Part shown: positions 8,257-62,928 of the stretch, piece after piece | How the letters are laid out: each line of letters opens with the position of its first letter | Position numbering within the stretch: position 1 is the first letter of the stretch | Assembly: GCF_000215105.1 (NCBI RefSeq) | Contig: NC_015588.1 | Location: 496,001-560,000, forward strand | DNA from: Isoptericola variabilis 225 | GTDB taxonomy: Bacteria > Actinomycetota > Actinomycetes > Actinomycetales > Cellulomonadaceae | DNA: 64,000 nt | Direction: 5' to 3' | Notes under the pieces: model-generated | The model's database searches: none | Told to the model about the DNA's origin: nothing | The model's input: the letters and a program-made list of their open reading frames with translations, nothing else | Position numbers and translations under genes: made by a program

Positions 8257-10551
8257 ATGAGAACCACCAGAGCGACGGCCTGCGCCGTCGCGGCGACGAC
8301 CGCGGGCGTGCTCGCGATCACCGGGGCGGCGGCGGTCGCCGCCCCCGGCGGCCCGCCCGGGTCCGCGGCGCCGACGGGCGGCGTCCAGCTCGAGCGGCTC
8401 GACCGCGGCCTGGTCGCGGCGCACACGAGCGAGGGCGTCTTCCTGTCCTGGCGCCTCCTCGGGGAGGAGGTCACCGGCCACACCGACTCGGGCATGGCGG
8501 GCGCCGACTTCGTCGTCTACCGCGACGGCGCTGCGATCGCCACCGTGACGGACTCGACCAACTACGTCGACCCGGCGGGCACGGCCGACGCCGAGTACGC
8601 CGTCGCACCCGTCGTCGACGGCGTCGAGGGGGAGCGGAGCGCGGCCGTGACCGCGTGGGACGCGGGCTACCTCGACATCCCGCTCAACAAGCCCGCCGAC
8701 GGCGTCACGCCGGTCGGCGAGGCCTACACCTACTCGGCCAACGACGCGTCGGTCGCCGACCTCGACGGCGACGGCGAGTACGAGATCGTGCTCAAGTGGG
8801 ACCCGTCCAACTCCAAGGACGTCTCGCAGAAGGGGTACACCGGCAACCAGTACCTCGACGCCTACGAGCTCGACGGCACCCAGCTGTGGCGCATCGACCT
8901 CGGCGTCAACATCCGCGCCGGTGCCCACTACACGCAGTTCCCCGTCTACGACTTCGACGGCGACGGGGCGGCCGAGCTCATGGTCAAGACGGCGCCGGGC
9001 ACCAAGGTCACGAAGTACGAGGACGGCGAGCCCGCCGGCGAGCAGTACATCCAGATCCCCGCGCGCGACCGCAAGGCCGGCGTCAAGCACAGCGACGACT
9101 ACCGGTACGGCGCGGACGACTACTACGAGCACGTCGTGCAGATGTTCCGCGACTGGGCCTCCTACCCCGAGGTGGTCAGCGGCCAGTGGCCCGCCACGCT
9201 CGAGGAGGCGTTCGGCATCGAGCCGCGGTACGACTACCCGCTCTCGGACGCCGACGCCCGCGCGCTCGCCGACCACTTCATGGACGTCTACGCGCCGAGC
9301 CGCTCGGCCCGCAACGACCTGCGCACGTTCGAGGGCTTCGTCATCAGCGGGCCCGAGTACCTCACGGTGTTCGAGGGTCGCTCGGGCCGGCCGCTGCGGA
9401 CGGTCGACTACAAGCCCGGACGCGAGGACGACGGCCTGCGCTGGGGCGACTACGCGATGTCCCGCATCGAGCCGGGCAACCGCGTGGACCGCTTCCTGGC
9501 CGGCGTCGCGTACCTCGACGGCGAGCGCCCGTCGGCGGTCTTCGCGCGCGGCTACTACACGCGCTCGACGATCGTGGCGTACGACTGGGACGGCAAGAAC
9601 CTCACCGAGCGGTGGTTCGTCGACTCCGGCTGGACGCCCATGACCAACCCGTTCAACGACGGGCCGCACGGCCGGCTCGGCACCGACCCCGAGTTCGGGT
9701 CGATCACCACGCAGGGCTTCCACTCGATGTCGGCGGCCGACGTCGACGGGGACGGCAAGCACGAGATCGTCTACGGCTCGGCGACGATCGACGACGACGG
9801 CTCGCTGCTCTACTCGTCGTTCGACACGCTGCCCCCGGGCAGCGGGAACCCGGGCGCGTACGTCGGGCTCGGGCACGGCGACGCCATGCACGTGACCGAC
9901 ATCGACCCGTCCCGCCCCGGGCTCGAGATCTGGACGGTGCACGAGGGCGGGGCGTGGGCGCCGTACGGCTCGGCGATGCGCGACGCCGCCACGGGCGAGG
10001 TGCTCTTCGGCGCCTACTCCGGCCGGGACACCGGCCGCGGCATGATCGGCGACGTCCTGCCCGGCACGCCGGGCATCGAGGTCTGGGCGTCGATGCCCGG
10101 CGGCTCCGACGGCTCGGGCACGCTCAGCGCCACCGGCGAGCAGGTCTCGACGCGGACCATGGGCACCAACCAGTCGGTGCGCTGGGCCGCGGACGCCACG
10201 ACGCAGATCATCGACGGCTCGGGCGACGCCACGCCGCGCATCGTCGACTGGTCCGGCACGGTGCTGTCGCTCGACGGCACGCGCACCAACAACGGCACCA
10301 AGGGCAACCCGTCGCTCGTCGCCGACGTCCTCGGCGACTGGCGCGAGGAGGTGCTCGTGCGCACGGCGGACTCGTCGGCCCTGCGGCTGTACCTGTCCAC
10401 CGAGGTCACGGACATCAAGCTCTACACGCTCATGCACGACCCGCAGTACCGGGCCGAGGTGGCCCGGCAGCAGACCGCCTACAACCAGCCGTCCTACCCG
10501 GGGTTCTACCTCGCGTCGGACACCGACTGGTCGCAGGTGCCGATCCCCTGA
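8257..10551 (+). CDS. Secreted rhamnogalacturonan lyase, PL11 family
   Basis: This enzyme cleaves the rhamnogalacturonan-I backbone by beta-elimination outside the cell. The 764-residue protein has a signal peptide (positive start, hydrophobic run, AAPGG after about residue 30). The PL11 opening VQLERLDRGLVAAHTSEGVF and repeated Ca-binding-type loops such as DLDGDGEYE, DFDGDGAAE and DVDGDGKHE match the family's eight-bladed propeller. It ends at the family C-terminus, TLMHDPQYR followed by TAYNQPSYPGFY, with no additional carbohydrate-binding module. It follows importer 1 and precedes sugar-oxidoreductase genes. A fragment of a related PL11 occurs at 41119-41736. Confidence 0.92.
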   Translation: MRTTRATACAVAATTAGVLAITGAAAVAAPGGPPGSAAPTGGVQLERLDRGLVAAHTSEGVFLSWRLLGEEVTGHTDSGMAGADFVVYRDGAAIATVTDSTNYVDPAGTADAEYAVAPVVDGVEGERSAAVTAWDAGYLDIPLNKPADGVTPVGEAYTYSANDASVADLDGDGEYEIVLKWDPSNSKDVSQKGYTGNQYLDAYELDGTQLWRIDLGVNIRAGAHYTQFPVYDFDGDGAAELMVKTAPGTKVTKYEDGEPAGEQYIQIPARDRKAGVKHSDDYRYGADDYYEHVVQMFRDWASYPEVVSGQWPATLEEAFGIEPRYDYPLSDADARALADHFMDVYAPSRSARNDLRTFEGFVISGPEYLTVFEGRSGRPLRTVDYKPGREDDGLRWGDYAMSRIEPGNRVDRFLAGVAYLDGERPSAVFARGYYTRSTIVAYDWDGKNLTERWFVDSGWTPMTNPFNDGPHGRLGTDPEFGSITTQGFHSMSAADVDGDGKHEIVYGSATIDDDGSLLYSSFDTLPPGSGNPGAYVGLGHGDAMHVTDIDPSRPGLEIWTVHEGGAWAPYGSAMRDAATGEVLFGAYSGRDTGRGMIGDVLPGTPGIEVWASMPGGSDGSGTLSATGEQVSTRTMGTNQSVRWAADATTQIIDGSGDATPRIVDWSGTVLSLDGTRTNNGTKGNPSLVADVLGDWREEVLVRTADSSALRLYLSTEVTDIKLYTLMHDPQYRAEVARQQTAYNQPSYPGFYLASDTDWSQVPIP

Positions 10552-10569
10552 CCCTCCGACCCCCTGCCC

Positions 10570-10619
10570 GGGCTGTCAGGCCCACGCCGCGACATGGCGA
10601 GGCGTGGGCCTGACAGCCC
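10570..10619. repeat. 42-bp palindromic element D1 (intergenic), possible terminator
   Basis: Core 10574-10615, TGTCAG-N30-CTGACA. The flanks extend the arms to a perfect 19-bp inverted repeat, GGGCTGTCAGGCCCACGCC at 10570-10588, around a 12-nt centre. It lies between the PL11 stop and the next oxidoreductase gene and could end transcription. In-frame relatives occur in the rhamnulokinase and LutC genes. Confidence 0.85.
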
Positions 10620-13553: not shown

Positions 13554-13561
13554 ATCAGCGC

Positions 13562-13630
13562 TGTGGGCATGATTTCTGGCCCGTTTTGCCCCTATAAAGC
13601 GGGCGAAACGGGCCAGAAATCATGCCCACA
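13562..13630. repeat. 69-bp palindrome A1, possible bidirectional terminator
   Basis: TGTGGGCATGATTTCTGG at the left end and its exact complement at the right end. The perfect arms reach 26 bp when counted as 13561-13586 and 13606-13631. It lies between the stops of two convergent genes (cupin and GH42), which suits a bidirectional terminator. A second 69-bp copy at 55644-55712 shows that it is a dispersed element. Confidence 0.85.
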
Positions 13631-13639
13631 GTGGGACGG

Positions 13640-15718
13640 TCAGCCGATCCGGACGACGCGGACGGCCCTCGCCGGGACGGTGAGCGCGCCGTCGGCGGCC
13701 TCGCCCGTGAGGAGCTCGGTGCCGCGGACCGGGGCCTCGGGCGTGCCGAGCGTCGCGTCGGCGTCGGTGTGGTTGATGGCGAACAGCCACGAGGTGGCGC
13801 CGTCCTCGGACCAGCGGCGCACGACCTCGACGCCCGCCGGCGGGGCGACGTCGGGCCCGACGCCGGACTCCTCGACCAGGCGGGCCGCGAGCGCGTCGAG
13901 CCCCGCGGCGTCGAGCCGGGTCGCGACGTACCAGGCGGCGCCGTCCTGCCCCACGGAGCGACGGGTGACCGCGGGCCACCCGGCGAGCGCGCCGTCGTCG
14001 TACGAGGCCACGACCTCGGTGCCGTCGGCGACGTGCGTCTTCTCGGTCCACAGGTCGGCGCTGGCCTCGCCGCCGACCGCCTTGCCCTCGACCCTGACGG
14101 TCTCGCCCTCCTGGAGCGGGTAGAACTCCTCGGTGCGCACGCCGAGCAGCTCGCGGAAGGCGCCCGGGTAGCCGCCGAGGCGCACGTGGTCGTGCTCGTC
14201 GACGATCCCGGAGAAGTAGGTGATCGCGACGGTCGCGCCGCGCTCGGCCGCGGACGCGACGTTCGCGGCGTCGGCGTCGGTGACGAGGTACGTGGTCGGC
14301 AGGACGACGAGGTCGTAGGCCGTGAGGTCGCCGTGCGGCGGCACCATGTCGACCGTGACGCCGAGGCGCCACAGCGCGCGGTACCACGCCTGGACCTGGT
14401 CCATGTAGCGCAGCGCCTGCGTCGGGTGCGAGTCGAGCTCGGAGCCCCACCACGACGGCCAGTCGACGACCATCGCCGCGCGCGAGCGGACGCGCGAGCC
14501 CCGCACCTCGCCGAGCGCGCGCAGCACCCGGCCGAGCTCGACGACGCCGCGCCACACGTCCGTGTCGGTGCCGGCGTGCGGGACCATGCCCGAGTGGTAC
14601 TTCTCGGCGCCCGCCCGGGAGGCCCGCCACTGGAAGAACATGACCGAGTCGGCGCCGCGCGCGACGTGCTGCAGCGAGTTGCGCAGGAGCTCGCCGGGGA
14701 GCTTGGTGCGGTTGCGCGGCTGCCAGTTGACCGCCGACGTCGAGTGCTCCATGAGGATCCACGGGTCGCCGCCCGCGACGCCGCGCGAGAGGTCGGCGGA
14801 GAACGCCAGCTCGACGTGGCGGTCCGGGTCCGCCGCGACCGTGTAGTGGTCGTTGGCGACGACGTCGAGCTCCGGCGCCCACGCGAAGTAGTCCATGCCC
14901 TTGGTGTGGCTCGACGCCATGAGGTTCGTCGTCGTCGGGACGTGCGGCGTGATCTCGCGCAGCGTGTCGCGCAGGTCGCGGTAGTAGTCGAGGAGCGCGT
15001 CGGACGAGAAGCGGTCGAAGTCGAGCTGCTGCGTCGGGTTGGCGAACGTCGGCGCGACGAGCGGCGGCAGGACGTCGTCGAACGAGCCGTAGCGCTGGGA
15101 CCAGAACGCGGTGCCCCACGCCTCGTTGAGGTTCTCGACGGTGCCGTAGCGGGCGCGCAGCCACTCGCGGAACGCCGCGGCGGCGGCGTCGGAGTAGTCG
15201 CGGGGGACGTGGCAGCCGATCTCGTTGTCGACGTGCCACAGCGCGAGCGCCGGGTGCTCGGAGTACCGCTCGGCCATGCGCGCGGCCATCCGCAGCGCGT
15301 ACTCCCGGTGGACGGGGTGCGTGACCGCGTACGACTGGCGGCCGCCCTGGTGCAGCACCGTGCCGTCGGCGAGTCGCGGCAGGATCTCCGGGTGCTTGCG
15401 CGTCAGCCACGGCGGCGGCGACGCGGTGGCGGTGGCGAGCGCGACCTGGATGCCGGCGTCGTGCAGGCGGTCCATCGTCTCGTCGAGCCAGCCCCACTCG
15501 AGCTCGCCCTCGCGCGGCTCGATCGTCGCCCACGAGAAGATCGCCACGCTCAGCAGGTTGACCCCCGCCTCGCGCATGAGCTCGATGTCCTCGAGCCGGA
15601 CCTCCTGCGGCCACTGCTCGGGGTTGTAGTCGCCACCGAACCCCAGGCCCTCGATGCGGGCGTTCCAGGGCCGGACGACGGACGGGTCGAAGGACTCGGG
15701 GGAGGTGCGTCGTCGCAT
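13640..15718 (-). CDS. GH42 beta-galactosidase
   Basis: A 692-residue glycosidase hydrolysing beta-galactosides, in this setting probably galactan or arabinogalactan side chains of rhamnogalacturonan-I. The GH42 hallmarks are GGDYNPEQWP near the N-terminus, WHVDNEIGCH with the acid/base Glu (about residue 170) and ILMEHSTSAVNWQ with the nucleophile Glu (about 320). The trimerisation/glutamine-amidotransferase-like middle domain and a C-terminal beta domain follow. There is no signal peptide, so it acts on imported oligosaccharides. A LacI-type operator lies 15 bp upstream of the start. Confidence 0.92.
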   Translation of the reverse strand: MRRRTSPESFDPSVVRPWNARIEGLGFGGDYNPEQWPQEVRLEDIELMREAGVNLLSVAIFSWATIEPREGELEWGWLDETMDRLHDAGIQVALATATASPPPWLTRKHPEILPRLADGTVLHQGGRQSYAVTHPVHREYALRMAARMAERYSEHPALALWHVDNEIGCHVPRDYSDAAAAAFREWLRARYGTVENLNEAWGTAFWSQRYGSFDDVLPPLVAPTFANPTQQLDFDRFSSDALLDYYRDLRDTLREITPHVPTTTNLMASSHTKGMDYFAWAPELDVVANDHYTVAADPDRHVELAFSADLSRGVAGGDPWILMEHSTSAVNWQPRNRTKLPGELLRNSLQHVARGADSVMFFQWRASRAGAEKYHSGMVPHAGTDTDVWRGVVELGRVLRALGEVRGSRVRSRAAMVVDWPSWWGSELDSHPTQALRYMDQVQAWYRALWRLGVTVDMVPPHGDLTAYDLVVLPTTYLVTDADAANVASAAERGATVAITYFSGIVDEHDHVRLGGYPGAFRELLGVRTEEFYPLQEGETVRVEGKAVGGEASADLWTEKTHVADGTEVVASYDDGALAGWPAVTRRSVGQDGAAWYVATRLDAAGLDALAARLVEESGVGPDVAPPAGVEVVRRWSEDGATSWLFAINHTDADATLGTPEAPVRGTELLTGEAADGALTVPARAVRVVRIG

Positions 15719-23418: not shown

Positions 23419-23570
23419 CGCTCCGCACGCCGAGGTAGCGCTCCGCTCGCCGAGGTAGCGCTCCGCTCGCCGAGGTAGCGCTCCGCTCGCCGAGGTAGCG
23501 CTCCGCTCGCCGAGGTAGCGCGCTACCTCGGCGCGGGACGCGCTACCTCGCGCGGCCGAGCGCTACCTCG
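23411..23570. repeat. 20-bp-period array 2: six direct and three inverted units
   Basis: CGAGGTAGCG at 23411, 23431, 23451, 23471, 23491 and 23511, then CGCTACCTCG at 23521, 23541 and 23561. Most spacers read CTCCGCTCGC. It lies between the convergent rhaB and HATPase genes and supplies the TAG stop of both. Confidence 0.95.
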
Positions 23571-24027
23571 GCGCGAGGGGGCTCGGGTCCGTGAAGCGGG
23601 CCCAGACGCGCTTCTCGTCGCGCGCGGTGCGGTACCACCCCACGGTGTGGGCGGCGCGTCGCGCGAGGTGCAGGCCGAAGCCGCCCTCGCCGGGCGGACG
23701 CCGCGACGCGACCACGGGCGGTACGTCGGGGCTGCGGTCGACGACCTCGAGCAGGACCGACCGGCCGTCGCACAGGAGCCGGACGGTCGCGGGGCCGTCG
23801 GCGTGCTGGAGCGCGTTCGACACCAGCTCGCTCGCCACGAGCACGATGCGCTCGACGCCGGACAGGGCGGTGTCCTCGACGGGGTCGGCGGTGGCGGCGG
23901 CGCAGTCGCACGGCAGCCGGTCGGCCAGCGCGTGGCGCACGCCCGAGAGCTCGTGCACGGAGCGCACCGTCCAGCTGCCGACCAGCGCCATCCTGCCGAC
24001 GCGCGGCGGGGCCTCGGTGCAGGTCAC
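23563..24027 (-). CDS. HATPase_c domain protein, RsbW-like anti-sigma regulatory factor
   Basis: A 154-residue single-domain GHKL ATPase of the serine-kinase anti-sigma type. The N-box is LVASELVSNALQHA, Asp in VVDRSPD, and the Gly-rich lid GGFGLHLARRAAHTVGW. The start is the GTG at 24027 with AGGAGG eight bases before it. A longer open frame upstream lacks domain similarity. A related protein is encoded at 27584. Partners would be a sigma factor and a STAS antagonist; neither is adjacent, but the STAS and PP2C genes lie 3 kb away. The stop codon is in array 2. Confidence 0.82.
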   Translation of the reverse strand: MTCTEAPPRVGRMALVGSWTVRSVHELSGVRHALADRLPCDCAAATADPVEDTALSGVERIVLVASELVSNALQHADGPATVRLLCDGRSVLLEVVDRSPDVPPVVASRRPPGEGGFGLHLARRAAHTVGWYRTARDEKRVWARFTDPSPLAPR

Positions 24028-24193: not shown

Positions 24194-24235
24194 TGTCAGA
24201 AGCCTGGTGGGCTCCGGCCCACCAGCTTTCTGACA
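24194..24235. repeat. 42-bp palindromic element C1 (intergenic), possible terminator
   Basis: TGTCAGAAGCCTGGTGGGC and its near-complement, two mismatches, around a 4-nt loop. It sits 12 bp beyond the stop of the leftward ABC ATPase gene. The same element occurs twice inside the E2 gene (61778, 61919). Confidence 0.88.
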
Positions 24236-36363: not shown

Positions 36364-37107
36364 TCAGGACGCAGGCGAGACCAGCAGCACGTGCAGCGTC
36401 CGGGGCCCGTGCACGCCCTCGACCCGGTCGAGCTCGATGTCGCTCGTCGCGCTCGGTCCGGAGATCCACGTCAGCGGGCGCTCCGGGTGCGCGCCGAGCA
36501 GCCGGACCGTCTCGGGCACGGTCTGCACCACCTGCTCCGCGCGGACGACGCACAGGTGCACGTCCGGCACGAGGGAGATGGCGCGGCGACCCTGGTCCGG
36601 CTCGCCGTCGAGCACGATGGTGCCGGTCTCCGAGCACGCGACGCGTGCCGCGGTGAGCACGGCGTCGACCGCGTCGAGCTCCGCCGCCGGCAGCGGGGCG
36701 TCGGGGGAGTCCTCGCGGACGACGACGCCGTCGGGAAGCGCGGCGAGCCAGGCCCGGTCGAGGCCGTGCGGCACCACGACCGTCACGCTCTCCTCCGAGT
36801 TGTCAGGTCCAGGGCCCGGTATACCCGGGCGTGAGCCTGACAACTCGTGGAGGAGGGCGGCGACGGCGGCGGGGAGCTCGGGCTCGGCGACCCGGTGGAC
36901 GTGGGCCTTGTAGTCGACGAGGCGGTCGACGAGCTGGTCGAGCACCTCGGGGGACCCGGGCGCGTGCTCGCCCGCGGCCCGGTAGTCACGCGGCACGACG
37001 ACGTCGCGCGGCGGGGCGCCGACCTTCCCGGCGGGCGTCGTTCCGGTGCCGGGGCGGCCCAGCGCCGCGCGCACCCGGGACAGCACCTCGGTGCGTGCAT
37101 CGGTCAT
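36364..37107 (-). CDS. lutC: LutC (lactate utilisation protein C) with an inserted palindromic segment
   Basis: A 247-residue subunit of the L-lactate oxidation complex LutABC. The DUF162/LUD core includes AARVACSETGTIVL and a C-terminal GPSATSDIELDRVEGVHGPR, the typical family end. Residues about 88-104 (around LSGSRPGIPGPGPDN) are encoded by a 42-bp palindrome, making an insertion not expected in LutC. The start ATG overlaps the LutB stop by 4 bp. Confidence 0.9.
   Translation of the reverse strand: MTDARTEVLSRVRAALGRPGTGTTPAGKVGAPPRDVVVPRDYRAAGEHAPGSPEVLDQLVDRLVDYKAHVHRVAEPELPAAVAALLHELSGSRPGIPGPGPDNSEESVTVVVPHGLDRAWLAALPDGVVVREDSPDAPLPAAELDAVDAVLTAARVACSETGTIVLDGEPDQGRRAISLVPDVHLCVVRAEQVVQTVPETVRLLGAHPERPLTWISGPSATSDIELDRVEGVHGPRTLHVLLVSPAS
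36801..36842. repeat. 42-bp palindromic element D3 inside lutC
   Basis: TGTCAGGTCCAGG on the plus strand and its partial complement at the other end. The flanks GAGT/ACTC extend the arms. The coding strand reads it as TTG-TCA-GGC, the same frame as in rhaB. Confidence 0.9.
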
Positions 37108-41779: not shown

Positions 41780-42838
41780 ATGAGCGAGCCCACCGCCCCC
41801 GTCGTGTCGTCCCCGCTGCGGCTCCCCGCAGGCGCCGCAGGCTCCCGGATCGTCGGGCTGGGTCACCACCAGCCCGCGAAGACGCTCACCAACGACGACA
41901 TCGCGCAGCTCGTCGAGACCAACGACGAGTGGATCCGGTCGCGCACCGGCATCGTCACGCGCCACGTCGCCGCCGACGACGTCACCGTCGCCGACATGGC
42001 GACGGCCGCCGCGGTGCACGCCCTCGAAGACGCGGGGCTGAGCCACGACGACGTCGACCTCGTGATCGTCGCCACCGCGACCGCCGTCGACCGCTCGCCC
42101 AACACGGCGGGGCGCGTCGCCTACGCGCTGCGGACCGGCGTCCAGCCGGGGGCGAGCACGCCCGAGGGCGAGGAGGAGCCGGACCTGCGCGACGTCGTCG
42201 GGCCCGCGGTGCTCGACGTCAACGTGGCCTGCTCGGGGTTCGCGCACGCCGTCGGCCTGGCCGACCAGGCCATCCGCGCCGGCAGTGCGCGCACCGCCGT
42301 CGTGATCGGGGCGGAGAAGCTCACGGCCTTCACCGACTGGAGCGACCGAAGCACGTGCATCCTCACCGCCGACGGCGCCGGCGCGGCGGTGCTGCAGTCG
42401 GCGGACGAGCCCGGCGTCGGGCCGGTCGTGTGGGGCTCGGAGCCCGAGATCACACCGGCCGTGCTCATCGAGGCGCCCGACGAGCGGTTCGCGCAGGACG
42501 GGCGCGCGGTCTTCAAGTGGGCGATCACGCGCGCCGCCGAGCGTGCCCGTCGCGTGGTCGAGGCGTCCGGGCTGGGGCTGGACGACATCGAGGTGCTCGT
42601 GGCGCACCAGGCGAACCTGCGCATCATCGAGCCGCTCGCCAAGAGCCTCGGGCTCGAGGACAAGGTCGTCGTCACCGACATCGTCGAGTCGGGGAACACG
42701 TCGGCCGCGTCGATCCCCATGGGGCTGTCGAAGTGGTGGCACTCCGGGCGCGTGCCCGCCGGCGCACCCGCGCTGCTCTTCGGGTTCGGCGGCGGCTTCG
42801 CCTGGGCGGGCCAGGTCGTCCTCACGCCCGCGAGGTAG
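41780..42838 (+). CDS. Beta-ketoacyl-ACP synthase III (FabH-like)
   Basis: 352 residues. Catalytic Cys in VNVACSGFAHAVG (about residue 152), His in VLVAHQANLRI and Asn in VESGNTSAASIPMG form the KAS III triad. It condenses an acyl-CoA with malonyl-ACP to start fatty-acid synthesis. No other fatty-acid gene is adjacent, so its role (primary or a special branched starter) is open. The alternative start at 41768 adds four residues. The TAG stop is inside the first unit of array 3. Confidence 0.9.
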   Translation: MSEPTAPVVSSPLRLPAGAAGSRIVGLGHHQPAKTLTNDDIAQLVETNDEWIRSRTGIVTRHVAADDVTVADMATAAAVHALEDAGLSHDDVDLVIVATATAVDRSPNTAGRVAYALRTGVQPGASTPEGEEEPDLRDVVGPAVLDVNVACSGFAHAVGLADQAIRAGSARTAVVIGAEKLTAFTDWSDRSTCILTADGAGAAVLQSADEPGVGPVVWGSEPEITPAVLIEAPDERFAQDGRAVFKWAITRAAERARRVVEASGLGLDDIEVLVAHQANLRIIEPLAKSLGLEDKVVVTDIVESGNTSAASIPMGLSKWWHSGRVPAGAPALLFGFGGGFAWAGQVVLTPAR

Positions 42839-43000
42839 CGCTCCACCCGCCGAGGTAGCGCTCCACCCGCCGAGGTAGCGCTCCACTCGCCGAGGTAGCG
42901 CTGCAGCGCGCGAGGTAGCGCGGCTCGCCGCGCTACCTCGGCGAATCGCGCGCTACTTCGCGGACCGGGGCGCTACCTCGGCGGATTCTGCGCTACCTCG
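42831..43000. repeat. 20-bp-period array 3: five direct and four inverted units
   Basis: CGAGGTAGCG at 42831, 42851, 42871, 42891 and 42911, then CGCTAC(C/T)TCG at 42931, 42951, 42971 and 42991. It supplies the FabH stop and ends 18 bp before an operator-like palindrome. Confidence 0.94.
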
Positions 43001-43018
43001 GCGTCCGGTAGGCTAGTC

Positions 43019-55631: not shown

Positions 55632-55643
55632 CCGGAAGATCGC

Positions 55644-55712
55644 TGTGGGCATGATTTCTGGTCCGCTTCGTCCCTTTTATGGGGGCGAACCGGGCCAGAA
55701 ATCATGCCCACA
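55644..55712. repeat. 69-bp palindrome A2
   Basis: Ends TGTGGGCATGATTTCTGG and CCAGAAATCATGCCCACA, identical to copy A1 at 13562. The inner arms differ at two positions, one of which keeps a G-U pair. It lies between the aldo/keto reductase and the sugar kinase. Confidence 0.85.
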
Positions 55713-55732
55713 ACGGGGAAGAGGGGAGTGAC

Positions 55733-59114: not shown

Positions 59115-59165
59115 TATCCGGTGCTCGACGCAGAGCAACCGGGGACGACGCGAGGTGAGGCGACG

Positions 59166-60443
59166 ATGCCCAGCACCATGGGTTCGACGACGCGCGGCGA
59201 CCTGTCACGAGCGGGGACGACGCGTCGGGAGACGGTGAACGACGGCCACCAGGACGCCGTCCGGCCGAGCACGGCCGGAACGGCCGGCAGCACGGAGCCG
59301 GCCGTGGCCACGGTCCGGCTGCTCGACGAGGACGGGGTCCGCCACCCGGACCCCGAGCACGACCGCTGGCTGCCGGACCTCGACGGGGACGGCGCCGACG
59401 AGGCCCTGCTGCGCCTGTACGAGGACATGGTCGTGGTCCGGCGGATCGACGCCGAGGCCACGGCGCTGCAGCGGCAGGGGCAGCTCGCGCTGTGGCCGCC
59501 GCTGCTGGGCCAGGAGGCCTCGCAGATCGGTTCGGCGCACGCGCTGCGCGCGGACGACTTCGTGTTCTCGAGCTACCGGGAGCACGCGGTCGCGCACGTG
59601 CGGGGTGCCCGGCCCGTCGACCTGCTGCGCGTGTGGCGCGGAGTGACCGGCTCCGGCTGGAACCCGTACGAGATCAACATGGCGACGCCGCAGGTCATCA
59701 TCGGTGCCCAGGCGCTGCACGCCATGGGCTACGCGATGGGCATCCTGGCCGACGCCGACCGCGGCATCGGGCCGCGGGCCGACGGGCAGGGCACGTCCGC
59801 CGTCGTGGGCTACTTCGGCGACGGCGCGATGAGCCAGGGCGACGTCAACGAGGCGTTCGTGTTCGCGGCCACGTGGGCGGCGCCCGTCGTGTTCTTCTGC
59901 CAGAACAACCAGTGGGCGATCTCGGAGCCCGTGACGCTGCAGTCGCGGGTGCCGCTCGTGCAGCGCGCGTCGGGCTTCGGCATCCCGGGCGTGCGGGTCG
60001 ACGGCAACGACGTCCTCGCGGTCCTCGCGGTGACGCGCGAGGCGCTGCACCGGGCCCGCACCGGCGGCGGCCCGACGCTCATCGAGGCCGTGACCTACCG
60101 CATGGGCCCGCACACGACCGCCGACGACCCCACGCGCTACCGGACCCCCGAGGAGCTCGAGGAGTGGCGCCGTCGTGACCCGATCACGCGGCTCGAGGCG
60201 TACCTGCGCTCGCGCGGCGCGCTCACGGAGGAGGTCGAGGCACGCGTCAAGGAGGCGGCCGACCGGGTCGCCGCCGAGCTGCGCGCCGGCTGCACCGCGA
60301 TCGAAGACCCGCCGCCCCTGACGGTGTTCGAGCACGTGTACGCCGAGCCGAACGCGACCGTCGCCGCCGAGCGCGACGAGTACGCCCGCTACCTGGCCGG
60401 CTTCGCGGACACCGACGACGACCAGAAGGGGGCCGCGCGATGA
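59166..60443 (+). CDS. bkdA: Branched-chain alpha-keto acid dehydrogenase E1 alpha
   Basis: 425 residues. The thiamine-diphosphate motif GDGAMSQGDVNEAFVFAATW...NNQWAIS lies around residues 215-255. It decarboxylates branched-chain 2-keto acids with the beta subunit. A divergent Lrp gene and a methylcrotonyl-CoA carboxylase gene downstream favour the branched-chain over the pyruvate enzyme. The start ATG 59166 has GAGG upstream; the first about 50 residues are low-complexity. It overlaps the beta gene by 4 bp. Confidence 0.88.
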   Translation: MPSTMGSTTRGDLSRAGTTRRETVNDGHQDAVRPSTAGTAGSTEPAVATVRLLDEDGVRHPDPEHDRWLPDLDGDGADEALLRLYEDMVVVRRIDAEATALQRQGQLALWPPLLGQEASQIGSAHALRADDFVFSSYREHAVAHVRGARPVDLLRVWRGVTGSGWNPYEINMATPQVIIGAQALHAMGYAMGILADADRGIGPRADGQGTSAVVGYFGDGAMSQGDVNEAFVFAATWAAPVVFFCQNNQWAISEPVTLQSRVPLVQRASGFGIPGVRVDGNDVLAVLAVTREALHRARTGGGPTLIEAVTYRMGPHTTADDPTRYRTPEELEEWRRRDPITRLEAYLRSRGALTEEVEARVKEAADRVAAELRAGCTAIEDPPPLTVFEHVYAEPNATVAAERDEYARYLAGFADTDDDQKGAAR

Positions 60444-61453
60444 GCACGCTCACCCTCGCGAAGGCGATCAACGCCGGGCTGCACCGGGCGATGGACACCG
60501 ACCCGACCGTCGTCGTCATGGGCGAGGACATCGGCCGCCTCGGCGGCGTCTACCGGGTCACGGACGGGCTGCAGGAAAAGTTCGGCGACCGTCGCGTGCT
60601 CGACACGCCGCTCGCCGAGTCCGGGATCCTCGGCACCGCGATCGGCATGGCCTACCGCGGCTACCGGCCGGTCGTCGAGATCCAGTTCGACGGGTTCGTC
60701 TACGTGGCGTTCGACCAGATCGTCAGCCAGGTCGCGAAGATGCACGCGCGCACCAACGGGAACGTCAAGCTGCCCATCACGATCCGCATCCCCGTGGCCG
60801 GCGGCATCGGCGCGGCCGAGCACCACTCGGAGTCGCCCGAGGCGTACTTCGTGCACACCGCCGGCCTGCGCGTCGTGTCGGTCGCCACCCCGCAGGACGC
60901 GTACACCGTGATCCAGCAGGCGATCGCGTGCGACGACCCGGTCGTGTTCTTCGAGCCCAAGCGGCGCTACCACGTCAAGGGCGAGGTCGACGAGACGGTC
61001 TCGCTCGACGAGGCGCCGCCCATGGGCGCCGCGCGCGTCGTCACGCCGGGCGACGACGTCACGATCGTGACGTTCGGCTCGCACGTCGCGACCGCGATCG
61101 ACGCCGCGACGGCGCTGTCCGACGACGGCGTGTCGGCCGAGGTGATCGACCTGCGGTCGCTGTCCCCGATCGACCACGAGCGCGTGGCCGAGTCGGTGCG
61201 CAAGACCGGGCGCCTCGTCGTCGTGCACGAGGGACCGCGGCAGGCCGGGGTGGGCGCGGAGATCGCCGCGACCGTCACCGAGCGGTGCTTCGAGCACCTG
61301 CTCGCCCCGCCCGTGCGCGTCACGGGCCACGACATCCCCTACCCGCCCGCGAAGCTGGAGATGCACCAGGTGCCCGACCTCGACCGGATCTGCGACGGCG
61401 TCGACCGCGTCCTCGGGCGCGTCCCCGCGAGCCTGCAGGGGGTGACCGCGTGA
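60440..61453 (+). CDS. bkdB: Branched-chain alpha-keto acid dehydrogenase E1 beta
   Basis: 337 residues, transketolase-type beta subunit: MGEDIGRLGGVYRVTDGL, DTPLAESGILG and EIQFDGFVYVAFDQIV. It forms the heterotetramer with E1 alpha. ATG overlapping E1 alpha; the stop overlaps the E2 start. Confidence 0.92.
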   Translation: MSTLTLAKAINAGLHRAMDTDPTVVVMGEDIGRLGGVYRVTDGLQEKFGDRRVLDTPLAESGILGTAIGMAYRGYRPVVEIQFDGFVYVAFDQIVSQVAKMHARTNGNVKLPITIRIPVAGGIGAAEHHSESPEAYFVHTAGLRVVSVATPQDAYTVIQQAIACDDPVVFFEPKRRYHVKGEVDETVSLDEAPPMGAARVVTPGDDVTIVTFGSHVATAIDAATALSDDGVSAEVIDLRSLSPIDHERVAESVRKTGRLVVVHEGPRQAGVGAEIAATVTERCFEHLLAPPVRVTGHDIPYPPAKLEMHQVPDLDRICDGVDRVLGRVPASLQGVTA

Positions 61454-62928
61454 TGACGACGCTGCGCGAGTTCCGCCTGCCGGACCTCGGCGAGGGCCTC
61501 ACCGAGTCGGACGTCGTGGCCTGGCGCGTCAAGGCCGGCGACCGCGTCGAGCTCAACCAGGTCATCGCCGAGGTCGAGACCGCCAAGGCGCTCGTCGAGA
61601 TCCCGTCGCCGTACGCCGGCGTCGTCCAGGCGCTGCACGCCGAGGAGGGCCAGACCGTCGAGGTCGGCGAGCCGCTCGTGACGTTCGAGGTGCCCGACGA
61701 CGCCGCCTCGTCCGCGAGCCCGGCGCCTGCTCCCGCGCCGCCCGAGGAGGTCACCACCCCGGAGACCGCCGAGCCCGTGTCAGAAAGCCAGGGGGCTGGA
61801 GCCCACCAGCCTTCTGACACGGAGAGGGACGAGGGCCCCGAGCCCAACCTCGTCGGCTACGGCGCGCGCCCCGAGCGCGCGGGCCGGCCGCGGCGCCGTC
61901 CGCGCCGCTACGCCCCCGTGTCAGAAAGCGGGTGGGCTGGAGCCCACCAGGTTTCTGACACGCTCGACCCGGACGCGCGCCGCGCCGCCGTGCGCGCGCA
62001 CACGACGCCCGGCATCAGGGCGATGGCCAAGCGCCTCGGGGTCGACCTGACCGGCGTGCAGGGCACCGGCCCCGACGGCAGCGTCACGCGCGAGGACGTC
62101 GAGGCCGCGGCGGCGTCGGGCGCCACGGCGCACGCGGCGACCCACGTGGTGTCGCCGAACGGCGCCGCGCCCGCACGCAGCGAGACCCGCACGCCCGTGC
62201 GCGGCGTGCGCAAGCACACGGCCGCGGCCATGGTCGCGAGCGTGCGGGAGGCCCCGCAGGCGTCGGTCTTCCTCACGGTCGACGTCACGCGCAGCATGGA
62301 GCTGCTCGCGCGGCTCAAGTCGCACCGCATGGCGGGCGGCACGCGCATCACCGTGCTGGCACTCGTCGCCCGGGCGATGTGCGCGCTGCTGCCCCGCCAC
62401 CCCGCGCTCATGACGCGCTGGCAGGACCTGCCCGACGGCGGCGCGGAGCTCGTGCGGCCCGCGCAGGTCGACCTCGGCATCGCGGTCGCGACCGACCGCG
62501 GGCTCGTCGTCCCGCACGTGCCGGGCGCCGACCGGATGTCGCTCGTCGAGCTGGCCGACGCCCTCGGGCGGCTCACCGAGACCGCGCGCGCGGGCCGCAC
62601 GCCGCCCGAGCGCCTGACCGGCGGCACGCTCACGATCACCAACGTGGGCGTGTTCGGGGTCGACGCCGGCACGCCGATCCTCAACCCGGGCGAGCCGGCG
62701 ATCCTCGGCGTCGGGCAGGTCGCGCGCCGGCCGTGGGAGCACGACGGCGAGGTCGCGCTCCGGCAGGTGATGACGCTGAGCCTCACGTTCGACCACCGCG
62801 TGGTCGACGGCGAGCAGGGCGCGCGCTTCCTCGCCGACCTCGGCGCGGTCCTCGAGGACCCGGCGCTCGCGCTGCTCCTCGGCGGCCCCGACGACGTCGG
62901 GTCCGGCACGGCGGGGGAGGGCGCGTGA
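61450..62928 (+). CDS. bkdC: Dihydrolipoamide acyltransferase E2 with two palindromic-element inserts
   Basis: 492 residues. Lipoyl domain about 2-80 with the lipoylated Lys in [10 protein letters not shown], linker, E3-binding domain about 178-215 ([15 protein letters not shown]) and catalytic domain with His/Asp in [10 protein letters not shown]. It transfers the acyl group to CoA. The linker contains two related 15-residue segments, [15 protein letters not shown] (110-124) and [15 protein letters not shown] (157-171), each encoded by a 42-bp palindrome and flanking the native EPNLVGYG motif. GTG 61450 or ATG 61453 as start. Confidence 0.93.
61778..61819. repeat. 42-bp palindromic element C2 inside the E2 gene
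   Basis: TGTCAGAAAGCCAGGGGGCT and a matching right arm ending CTGACA, 14 codons, in frame GTG-TCA-GAA. Confidence 0.92.
61919..61960. repeat. 42-bp palindromic element C3 inside the E2 gene
   Basis: TGTCAGAAAGCGGGTGGGCT and AGCCCACCAGGTTTCTGACA, 14 codons, in the same frame as C2. The arms are nearly complementary. Confidence 0.92.

Follow-up and report, generated by a model that had tools for sequence, protein, structure and literature searches.

We analysed a stretch of 64,000 nucleotides (hereafter the window; G000:C1:496001-560000, G000 being the own genome) from Isoptericola variabilis 225, whose genome was searched as one contig of 3,307,740 bp. An E1 alpha-like ORF (59121-60443) and a beta-like ORF (60440-61453) adjoin the gene of a dihydrolipoyl acyltransferase (E2), whose ORF runs from an ATG at 61453 to a stop codon at 62926-62928. 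The initial annotation had described two 42-bp palindromes in the linker of this E2, 99 bp apart, flanking the NLVGYG motif and read in one shared frame, and all of these were found. Searching the window for TGTCAG-N26..34-CTGACA yielded six copies against 0.02 expected from shuffled sequences: two in the E2 gene, one in a LUD-domain gene and three intergenic. The features, in window positions, are the following:

61453..62928, + strand: host gene, dihydrolipoyl acyltransferase (E2) of a 2-oxoacid/branched-chain dehydrogenase operon
61778..61819, no strand: class A element 1 in the E2 linker, 46 bp including the flanking CG, encoding a 15-residue peptide on the + strand
61919..61960, no strand: class A element 2 in the E2 linker, encoding a 15-residue peptide
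36801..36842, no strand: class B element, in frame in the gene of a LUD-domain protein (36364-37107, - strand), peptide EL-SGSRPGIPGPGPD-NS
10574..10615, no strand: class B element, intergenic, 22 bp past a stop codon
21938..21979, no strand: class B element, intergenic
24194..24235, no strand: class A element, intergenic, 12 bp from a gene 3' end

No Rfam family was detected in the window at the gathering threshold.

A dispersed family of 42-bp palindromes

The initial annotation had suggested counting TGTCAG-N30-CTGACA inside and outside genes. This exact pattern yielded 98 matches in the genome and 0 with the reversed-pattern control; the count was unchanged (98) with a spacing of N28-32, and rose to 101 with N20-50, for which the control gave 1. 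We read 97 of the 98 copies with their flanks (the one left out belongs to class A) and found 32 of these 97 fully within genes. By sequence, the copies were sorted into 52 of class A, 44 of class B and two others. Class A has the form TGTCAGA...TCTGACA with a GGTGGG core, its palindromy reaching a CG on either side, and class B has the form TGTCAGG...CCTGACA with the centre GGTATACC, its palindromy reaching CGAGT...ACTCG (52 bp).

The nearest E2 protein found (L044, 82% identical) lacks the class A segments, as do the eight other E2 proteins that we aligned, two of which (L045 and L047) carry palindrome pairs of other dialects in the same linker. The outcome named in advance as speaking against the annotation, a segment in every relative and no palindromy, was not observed. 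E2 linkers do differ strongly among the nine aligned relatives, as would be expected of ordinary variable linker sequence, but members of the same 42-mer family stand at 98 places, the shuffles give almost none per window and the reversed control none. With the E2 alignment, this rules out the ordinary-linker reading, to which we assign practically no probability. The E2 elements are best explained as passengers tolerated by the linker. The genome encodes a second E2 (L131 2233-3711; 268899 and 269085), likewise an acyltransferase, in which two in-frame class B elements flank VLVGYG.

We searched 58 genomes including the own one, of which 24 had a match; 13, all from the same family, had at least 7, and the other 11 had 1-3, which is near chance. 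G000, G002, G003, G004, G005, G013, G014, G022 and G024 count among the element-rich genomes, whereas no match came from G001, G006, G008-G011 or G015-G017. In 396 genomes of the order, 32 had a match and 8 had at least 7 (six from the own family, and G105 and G131 from another family). The GC content was 72-76% in the stretches sampled. In a viral collection, the class A pattern gave 0 matches, and a looser pair pattern matched 7 stretches. What had been presented as a feature of one E2 protein is real at that place, but it belongs to a chromosome-wide system present in several related genera. The proposal of dispersed in-frame palindromic elements, similar to the RPE of Rickettsia, in a high-GC actinobacterium is borne out by the orthologues without the segments and by the 98 copies.

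Copies inside and between genes

Genes were called with a simple, purpose-written codon-usage gene caller. The 32 in-gene copies of the own genome are spread over 23 genes and all use the frame xTG TCA (32/32); another copy (2165968) overlaps a gene end and gives that gene's stop in another frame. The same frame was used by every in-gene copy in G013 (10/10, with 45 copies in the stretches read), G014 (14/14, of 19 copies), G003 (5/5, of 14), G002 (5/5, of 7), G024 (9/9, of 15) and G019 (1/1, with 9 of its 10 copies read). Pooling the seven genomes gives 76/76 fully-in-gene copies in 63 host genes in a single frame, which is also obeyed by five more copies, found in L045 (E2 and biotin carboxylase genes) and in L047 (E2 gene). 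The frame is constant ([L/V]-S-x11-D) while the interior peptide is genome-specific. Reading both strands of the 97 copies (194 readings), the used frame is open in 183 and the third frame in none, a stop occurring in every reading. The second frame is open in 189 readings, yet its use was seen in no case; its peptide would start with Cys-Gln and is less polar than that of the used frame (mean hydropathy -0.38 vs -0.73 for class A and 0.27 vs -1.06 for class B).

The host proteins include HrpA, the second E2, an Hrq1/MrfA-like helicase, Fpg/Nei, a NuoG-like protein, AMP-binding and TPP enzymes, SMC (at the hinge), MoeA, HemD, an XPB-like helicase and a molybdopterin oxidoreductase. In the model of HemD (mean pLDDT 92.6), the first element falls where the chain is unstructured (residues 131-140 have a mean pLDDT of 57), and the second lies where the C-terminal helix ends and in the tail. 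Many dispersed palindromic copies, in-frame presence in unrelated conserved protein genes and orthologues of the host proteins without the element are all observed here, as would be expected of elements of the RPE/WPE kind.

The two arms of class A copies differ in composition according to whether they are translated. Intergenic copies hold TGGTG at positions 12-16 in 56/74 arms, and their virtual readings contain two Trp in 54/74. Coding copies in sense orientation have TGGTG in 0/14 five-prime arms and 14/14 three-prime arms (Fisher 5e-8; the 14 copies are not all independent because four form two tandem pairs), the first Trp being replaced by Gln, Arg, Gly or Glu. In class B, position 9 is asymmetric as well, though less strongly (P 0.037, for the best base there and with fifteen positions looked at). 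The loss of the first Trp codon in coding class A copies therefore indicates translation and selection at the protein level, and we take the arm asymmetry, as far as sequence can tell, to reflect selection acting on copies that are translated; alternatively, the source copy may itself have been asymmetric.

Between genes, 41 of the 56 intergenic copies that have a neighbouring gene 3' end lie at most 30 bp from it, and 16/65 intergenic copies lie between convergent genes (background 31/179). The position behind genes and between convergent ones would suit bidirectional intrinsic terminators that are palindromic by chance, as would the TTTCT in which the class A stem ends and the extra pairing of intergenic class A copies described below. 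One third of all copies, however, lie in frame within ORFs, and the stem is followed by only three T in class A and by none in class B, which makes terminators a very improbable account of the family.

We compared the pairing of the two arms at variable positions with that of shuffled arms. For coding copies, it was 0.286 vs 0.487 in class A and 0.500 vs 0.500 in class B; for intergenic copies, it exceeded that of shuffled arms in class A (0.708 vs 0.590, P 0.0004) and marginally exceeded chance in class B (P 0.049). A pure hairpin or RNA element is unsupported for the coding copies, whose pairing is at or below the shuffled level. Because intergenic class A copies keep extra arm pairing, a secondary hairpin role between genes is possible.

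Pairs of copies in direct orientation mostly lie at 60-63 bp. In the own genome, the partners of tandem pairs are alike in direct orientation (5.0 vs about 8 differences; permutation 0/20,000), and in G013 this likeness is weak (9.5 vs 10.9). The flanks of the elements (about 20 bp per side) are rich in C to the left and in G to the right, both inside and outside genes, a possible insertion preference.

Shared sites and differing dialects among relatives

In a tree built from a single 1,455-bp segment (support 87/92), G006 and G015 are the closest relatives of the own genome and G014 is the next, placed outside G000+(G006,G015). No copy was seen in G006 and G015, whose assemblies are 74% and 86% complete, nor in G010. 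Ten sites of the own genome were compared with their counterparts in G006, G015 and G014, and at four of them a close relative is clearly shorter. The pair at 2681648 (103 bp) is absent from G006, G015 and G014 (net 3, 5 and -15 bases), as is the class A copy at 2685470 (2, 2 and -7 bases). The copy in a MenE-like gene at 604085 corresponds to -3 bases in G006 and G015 and to 45 bases in G014, by eye a decayed copy. Site 2684844 holds 6 bases in G015, 9 in G006 and, in G014, an exact element of the G014 dialect. Elsewhere, the relatives have other linker sequence (36-51 bases) at 2833666 and 2838704, perhaps decayed copies, 41, 47 and 46 bases at 2684215, with a degenerate palindrome in G014, and 24, 15 and 72 bases at 608603; 605144 (20 bases, G006 only) and the pair at 2837216 (519 bases in G014) allowed little comparison. 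Because G014 falls outside G000+(G006,G015), some of the "empty" sites may be deletions.

To compare positions within proteins, we aligned host proteins of eight genomes after removing the element residues, defining orthologues by an identity of 60% or more. A partner at most 3 residues away in another genome's orthologue was found for 51/81 in-gene copies, at 19 sites (45/76 without L045 and L047, which had been fetched for their E2); the site in the LUD-domain protein, for instance, is also occupied (within 3 residues) in G003 and G013. In the 88 element comparisons between orthologous hosts, the two positions coincided exactly in 16 and lay at most 3 residues apart in 42. The interiors of same-site copies differ at 17.5/30 bases and those of random cross-genome pairs at 18.3. 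Copies within one genome differ at 6.7-14.6/30, the upper value being that of the own genome with its two classes (7.1 and 9.1 within classes). Same-site partners exist for 1/14 class A and 14/18 non-A copies (P 8e-5). By this difference, most class B sites are shared and presumably old, class A looks like a young, lineage-specific expansion, and the E2 copies of the window are part of the latter.

Because same-site interiors resemble each other no more than random cross-genome pairs do, the shared places could stem from separate insertions that struck a few target hot spots again and again, with neither vertical inheritance nor a turnover of dialects. Two Cellulosimicrobium funkei linkers that hold an unrelated 54-bp repeat would fit such hot spots as well. 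Against them stand the frequency of exact or near-exact coincidence in the comparisons above, the 60-bp period that the E2 tandem pair keeps in G002, G004 and G013, and a possible relic: the own copy at 2408285, a site occupied in G014 too, has a sequence like the G014 dialect and may be an unconverted relic. We consider the hot spots unlikely and favour, from the aligned sequences, inheritance with concerted replacement over repeated insertion at the same places; the comparisons are best explained if sites persist while the genome-wide "dialect" turns over.

Some copies are of interest in themselves. G014:C29:33070-33111 looks chimeric, with arms from two different dialects. The Nei gene of the own genome contains a degenerate in-frame class A copy (1163062, L148) with a synonymous TCA->TCC change in its core. 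The Nei homologues P0025, P0036, P0037 and P0040 have linker peptides like VSETQVTGVTHASDT, possibly another class A-type dialect. A regular-expression count of element-like peptides, which misses visible cases and is given no weight here, gave 6/79 linkers for Nei and 1/87 for HemD (120 homologues each).

Proposed recognition and spread, and relation to known elements

Outside the search pattern, some positions of the half-sites are near-invariant while their neighbours vary (C at position 10 in 88/88 for class B, G at position 16 in 102/102 for class A). The genome has 81 class B half-sites, of which 78 belong to exact 42-bp dyads and 3 do not; class A half-sites were sought in the fetched stretches. 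Judged by its sequence, the dyad resembles a site where a protein with two-fold symmetry binds double-stranded DNA, with about 21 bp per subunit.

We consider that the palindromes probably form a dispersed dyad family, RPE-like and protein-coding, that is recognised and spread by a trans-acting dimeric protein and undergoes dialect drift. A trans-acting dimeric DNA-binding protein would recognise the dyad, each subunit contacting about 21 bp, and the same protein would copy or move it, making the elements non-autonomous. Copies landing in frame as a polar loop would survive, a drift in the protein's specificity would be followed by the copies of that genome as a new dialect, and loss of the protein would leave the copies to decay or be deleted. 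We found no mobilising protein. The flanks examined held no clean target-site duplication beyond the flanking CG, which is itself palindromic. Among the three lone class B half-sites, none were paired around a gene, and the search for an autonomous element by this route gave none.

Movement by an IS200-like Y1 transposase (RAYT), as for REP or REPIN elements, would suit the intergenic copies, whose placement within 30 bp of gene 3' ends is that of REPs. In the available parts of the published descriptions, GTAG and CGTC REPs also occur within ORFs, many of them in DNA synthesis and repair genes. On the other hand, PF01797 had a match in 0/36 family genomes including the own one, the GTAG or CGTC tag is absent, and pair partners are alike in direct orientation (5.0 vs 9.1 differences), whereas REP dimers are described, as far as the accessible text goes, as mostly head-to-head and rarely head-to-tail. 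We regard a RAYT/IS200 mover as highly unlikely, and the search for Y1 together with the missing tag and missing inverted pairs left this candidate unsupported.

We examined the distribution of copies along the chromosome. The first gene of the contig is dnaA-like and is followed by dnaN- and recF-like genes, as read from the sequence (the DnaA-like protein has one strong G013 match). The largest element-free gap spans 659,357 bp and is centred at 1,655,650, the antipode of dnaA being 1,654,060; its P is 1.25e-4 under uniform placement (58 clusters, 97 copies), and a 51-bp match inside it, at 1474664, fits the loose pattern without being one of the 42-bp elements. From origin to terminus, the clusters per tenth of an arm number 4, 9, 6, 10, 7, 6, 7, 8, 1 and 0. 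In G013, depletion at the terminus was not significant (gap P 0.105; clusters per tenth 1, 6, 3, 4, 4, 4, 4, 1, 0 and 2).

Such a gap opposite dnaA would be expected if the dyads were sites of a nucleoid protein (Noc- or SlmA-like, or a condensin or replication factor), retained by selection on the arms and excluded from the terminus, gene insertion being merely the way in which new sites arise. The places also persist across species while the sequence differs, and few class B copies are half-decayed. The available excerpts on these proteins give about 70 Noc sites (14 bp) and 24-52 SlmA sites, both under-represented in part of the chromosome, and the 98 copies are of the same order. Against this stand the weak depletion in G013 and the shorter Noc site, and the copies fall to 0 in close relatives, so that a chromosome function cannot be essential. 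We judge this reading improbable. A wider version, in which the dyads would be sites of a dimeric organising protein on both arms and off the terminus, and at the same time mobile, settling in reading frames as polar loops and changing in concert to a new dialect in each species while their places in those proteins are kept, is proposed tentatively and with low confidence. Palindromic sites of Noc and SlmA likewise number in the tens, are unevenly spread and are rare near the terminus, but the protein that binds them is known; we know of no such site that is mobile or coding.

Returning to the dispersed dyad family moved in trans, its closest likeness is with the RPE and the Wolbachia repeats, which are also dispersed, comprise several families and occur both between genes and in frame in unrelated protein genes. 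The available parts of the RPE reports give 44 integrations in ten families for R. conorii and a length of about 150 bp or 105-146 bp. The elements here measure 42 bp against the RPE's 105-150 bp (RPE being compared by description) and have an actinobacterial host, and the TGTCAG tag, the dialects at shared sites, the Trp avoidance and the gap opposite the origin are traits that we set against the RPE. Rickettsia and Wolbachia are the bacteria best known for protein-coding palindromes.

With REPs and REPIN-RAYT systems, as far as their accessible descriptions go, the elements share the form of 20-40 bp palindromes, often paired, lying behind genes or between convergent ones and sometimes in ORFs; CGTC REPs likewise have no dedicated transposase. 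They differ in their tag, which both arms carry, in their fixed 42 bp, in direct pairs mostly at 60-63 bp, in the lack of a Y1 match and in the single frame of 76/76 copies. MITEs are, in the portions of the reports available, similarly non-autonomous with terminal inverted repeats and known in-frame fusions; here the whole element consists of two 21-bp inverted arms, no target-site duplication was seen and class B half-sites led to no autonomous copy.

DNA uptake sequence dialects of Neisseriaceae shift in concert between species, and these sequences lie in genes and in terminator-like inverted repeats; they measure 10-12 bp, occur in about a thousand copies or more and are not known to insert codons in frame. 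The likeness to the present family is that many copies shift in concert, and the differences are size, number and the absence of inserted codons.

The initial annotation's remark that no named equivalent exists does not hold in this form: Wolbachia protein-coding palindromic repeats and GTAG/CGTC REPs within ORFs are on record in the published descriptions, so far as these were available. In the open-licence literature, no paper on such elements in these bacteria was among the matches listed. The best reading of our analysis is that they represent a new family of RPE-like protein-coding palindromes, which would work like RPE, Wolbachia repeats and REPs in ORFs. This high-GC group offers copies that are lineage-specific or probably decayed, empty sites, same-site variants and close relatives in which no copy was seen; movement, the use of one frame, the origin of new protein segments and a selfish as opposed to a chromosomal role are therefore testable, and the trans-acting factor should emerge by comparing genomes with and without elements.

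Other repeats were met nearby. The window contains arrays of about 20-bp repeats in inverted arms at 23423-23578 and 42831-43003 (CGAGGTAGCGC.../GCGCTACCTCG), and a repeat of apparently the same kind has many matches in G006 and G015. Two similar long hairpins at 13561-13631 and 55641-55715 (CTGTGGGCATGATTTCTGG...) suggest another dispersed inverted-repeat family. Cellulosimicrobium funkei (L050) has three 54-bp repeats (10271-10324, 10526-10579 and 14879-14932) whose inverted ends read GAACCnGGGG...CCCGGGTTC. The E2 linker contains two of them and the linker of the biotin carboxylase the third: the element is unrelated and the linkers are the same.
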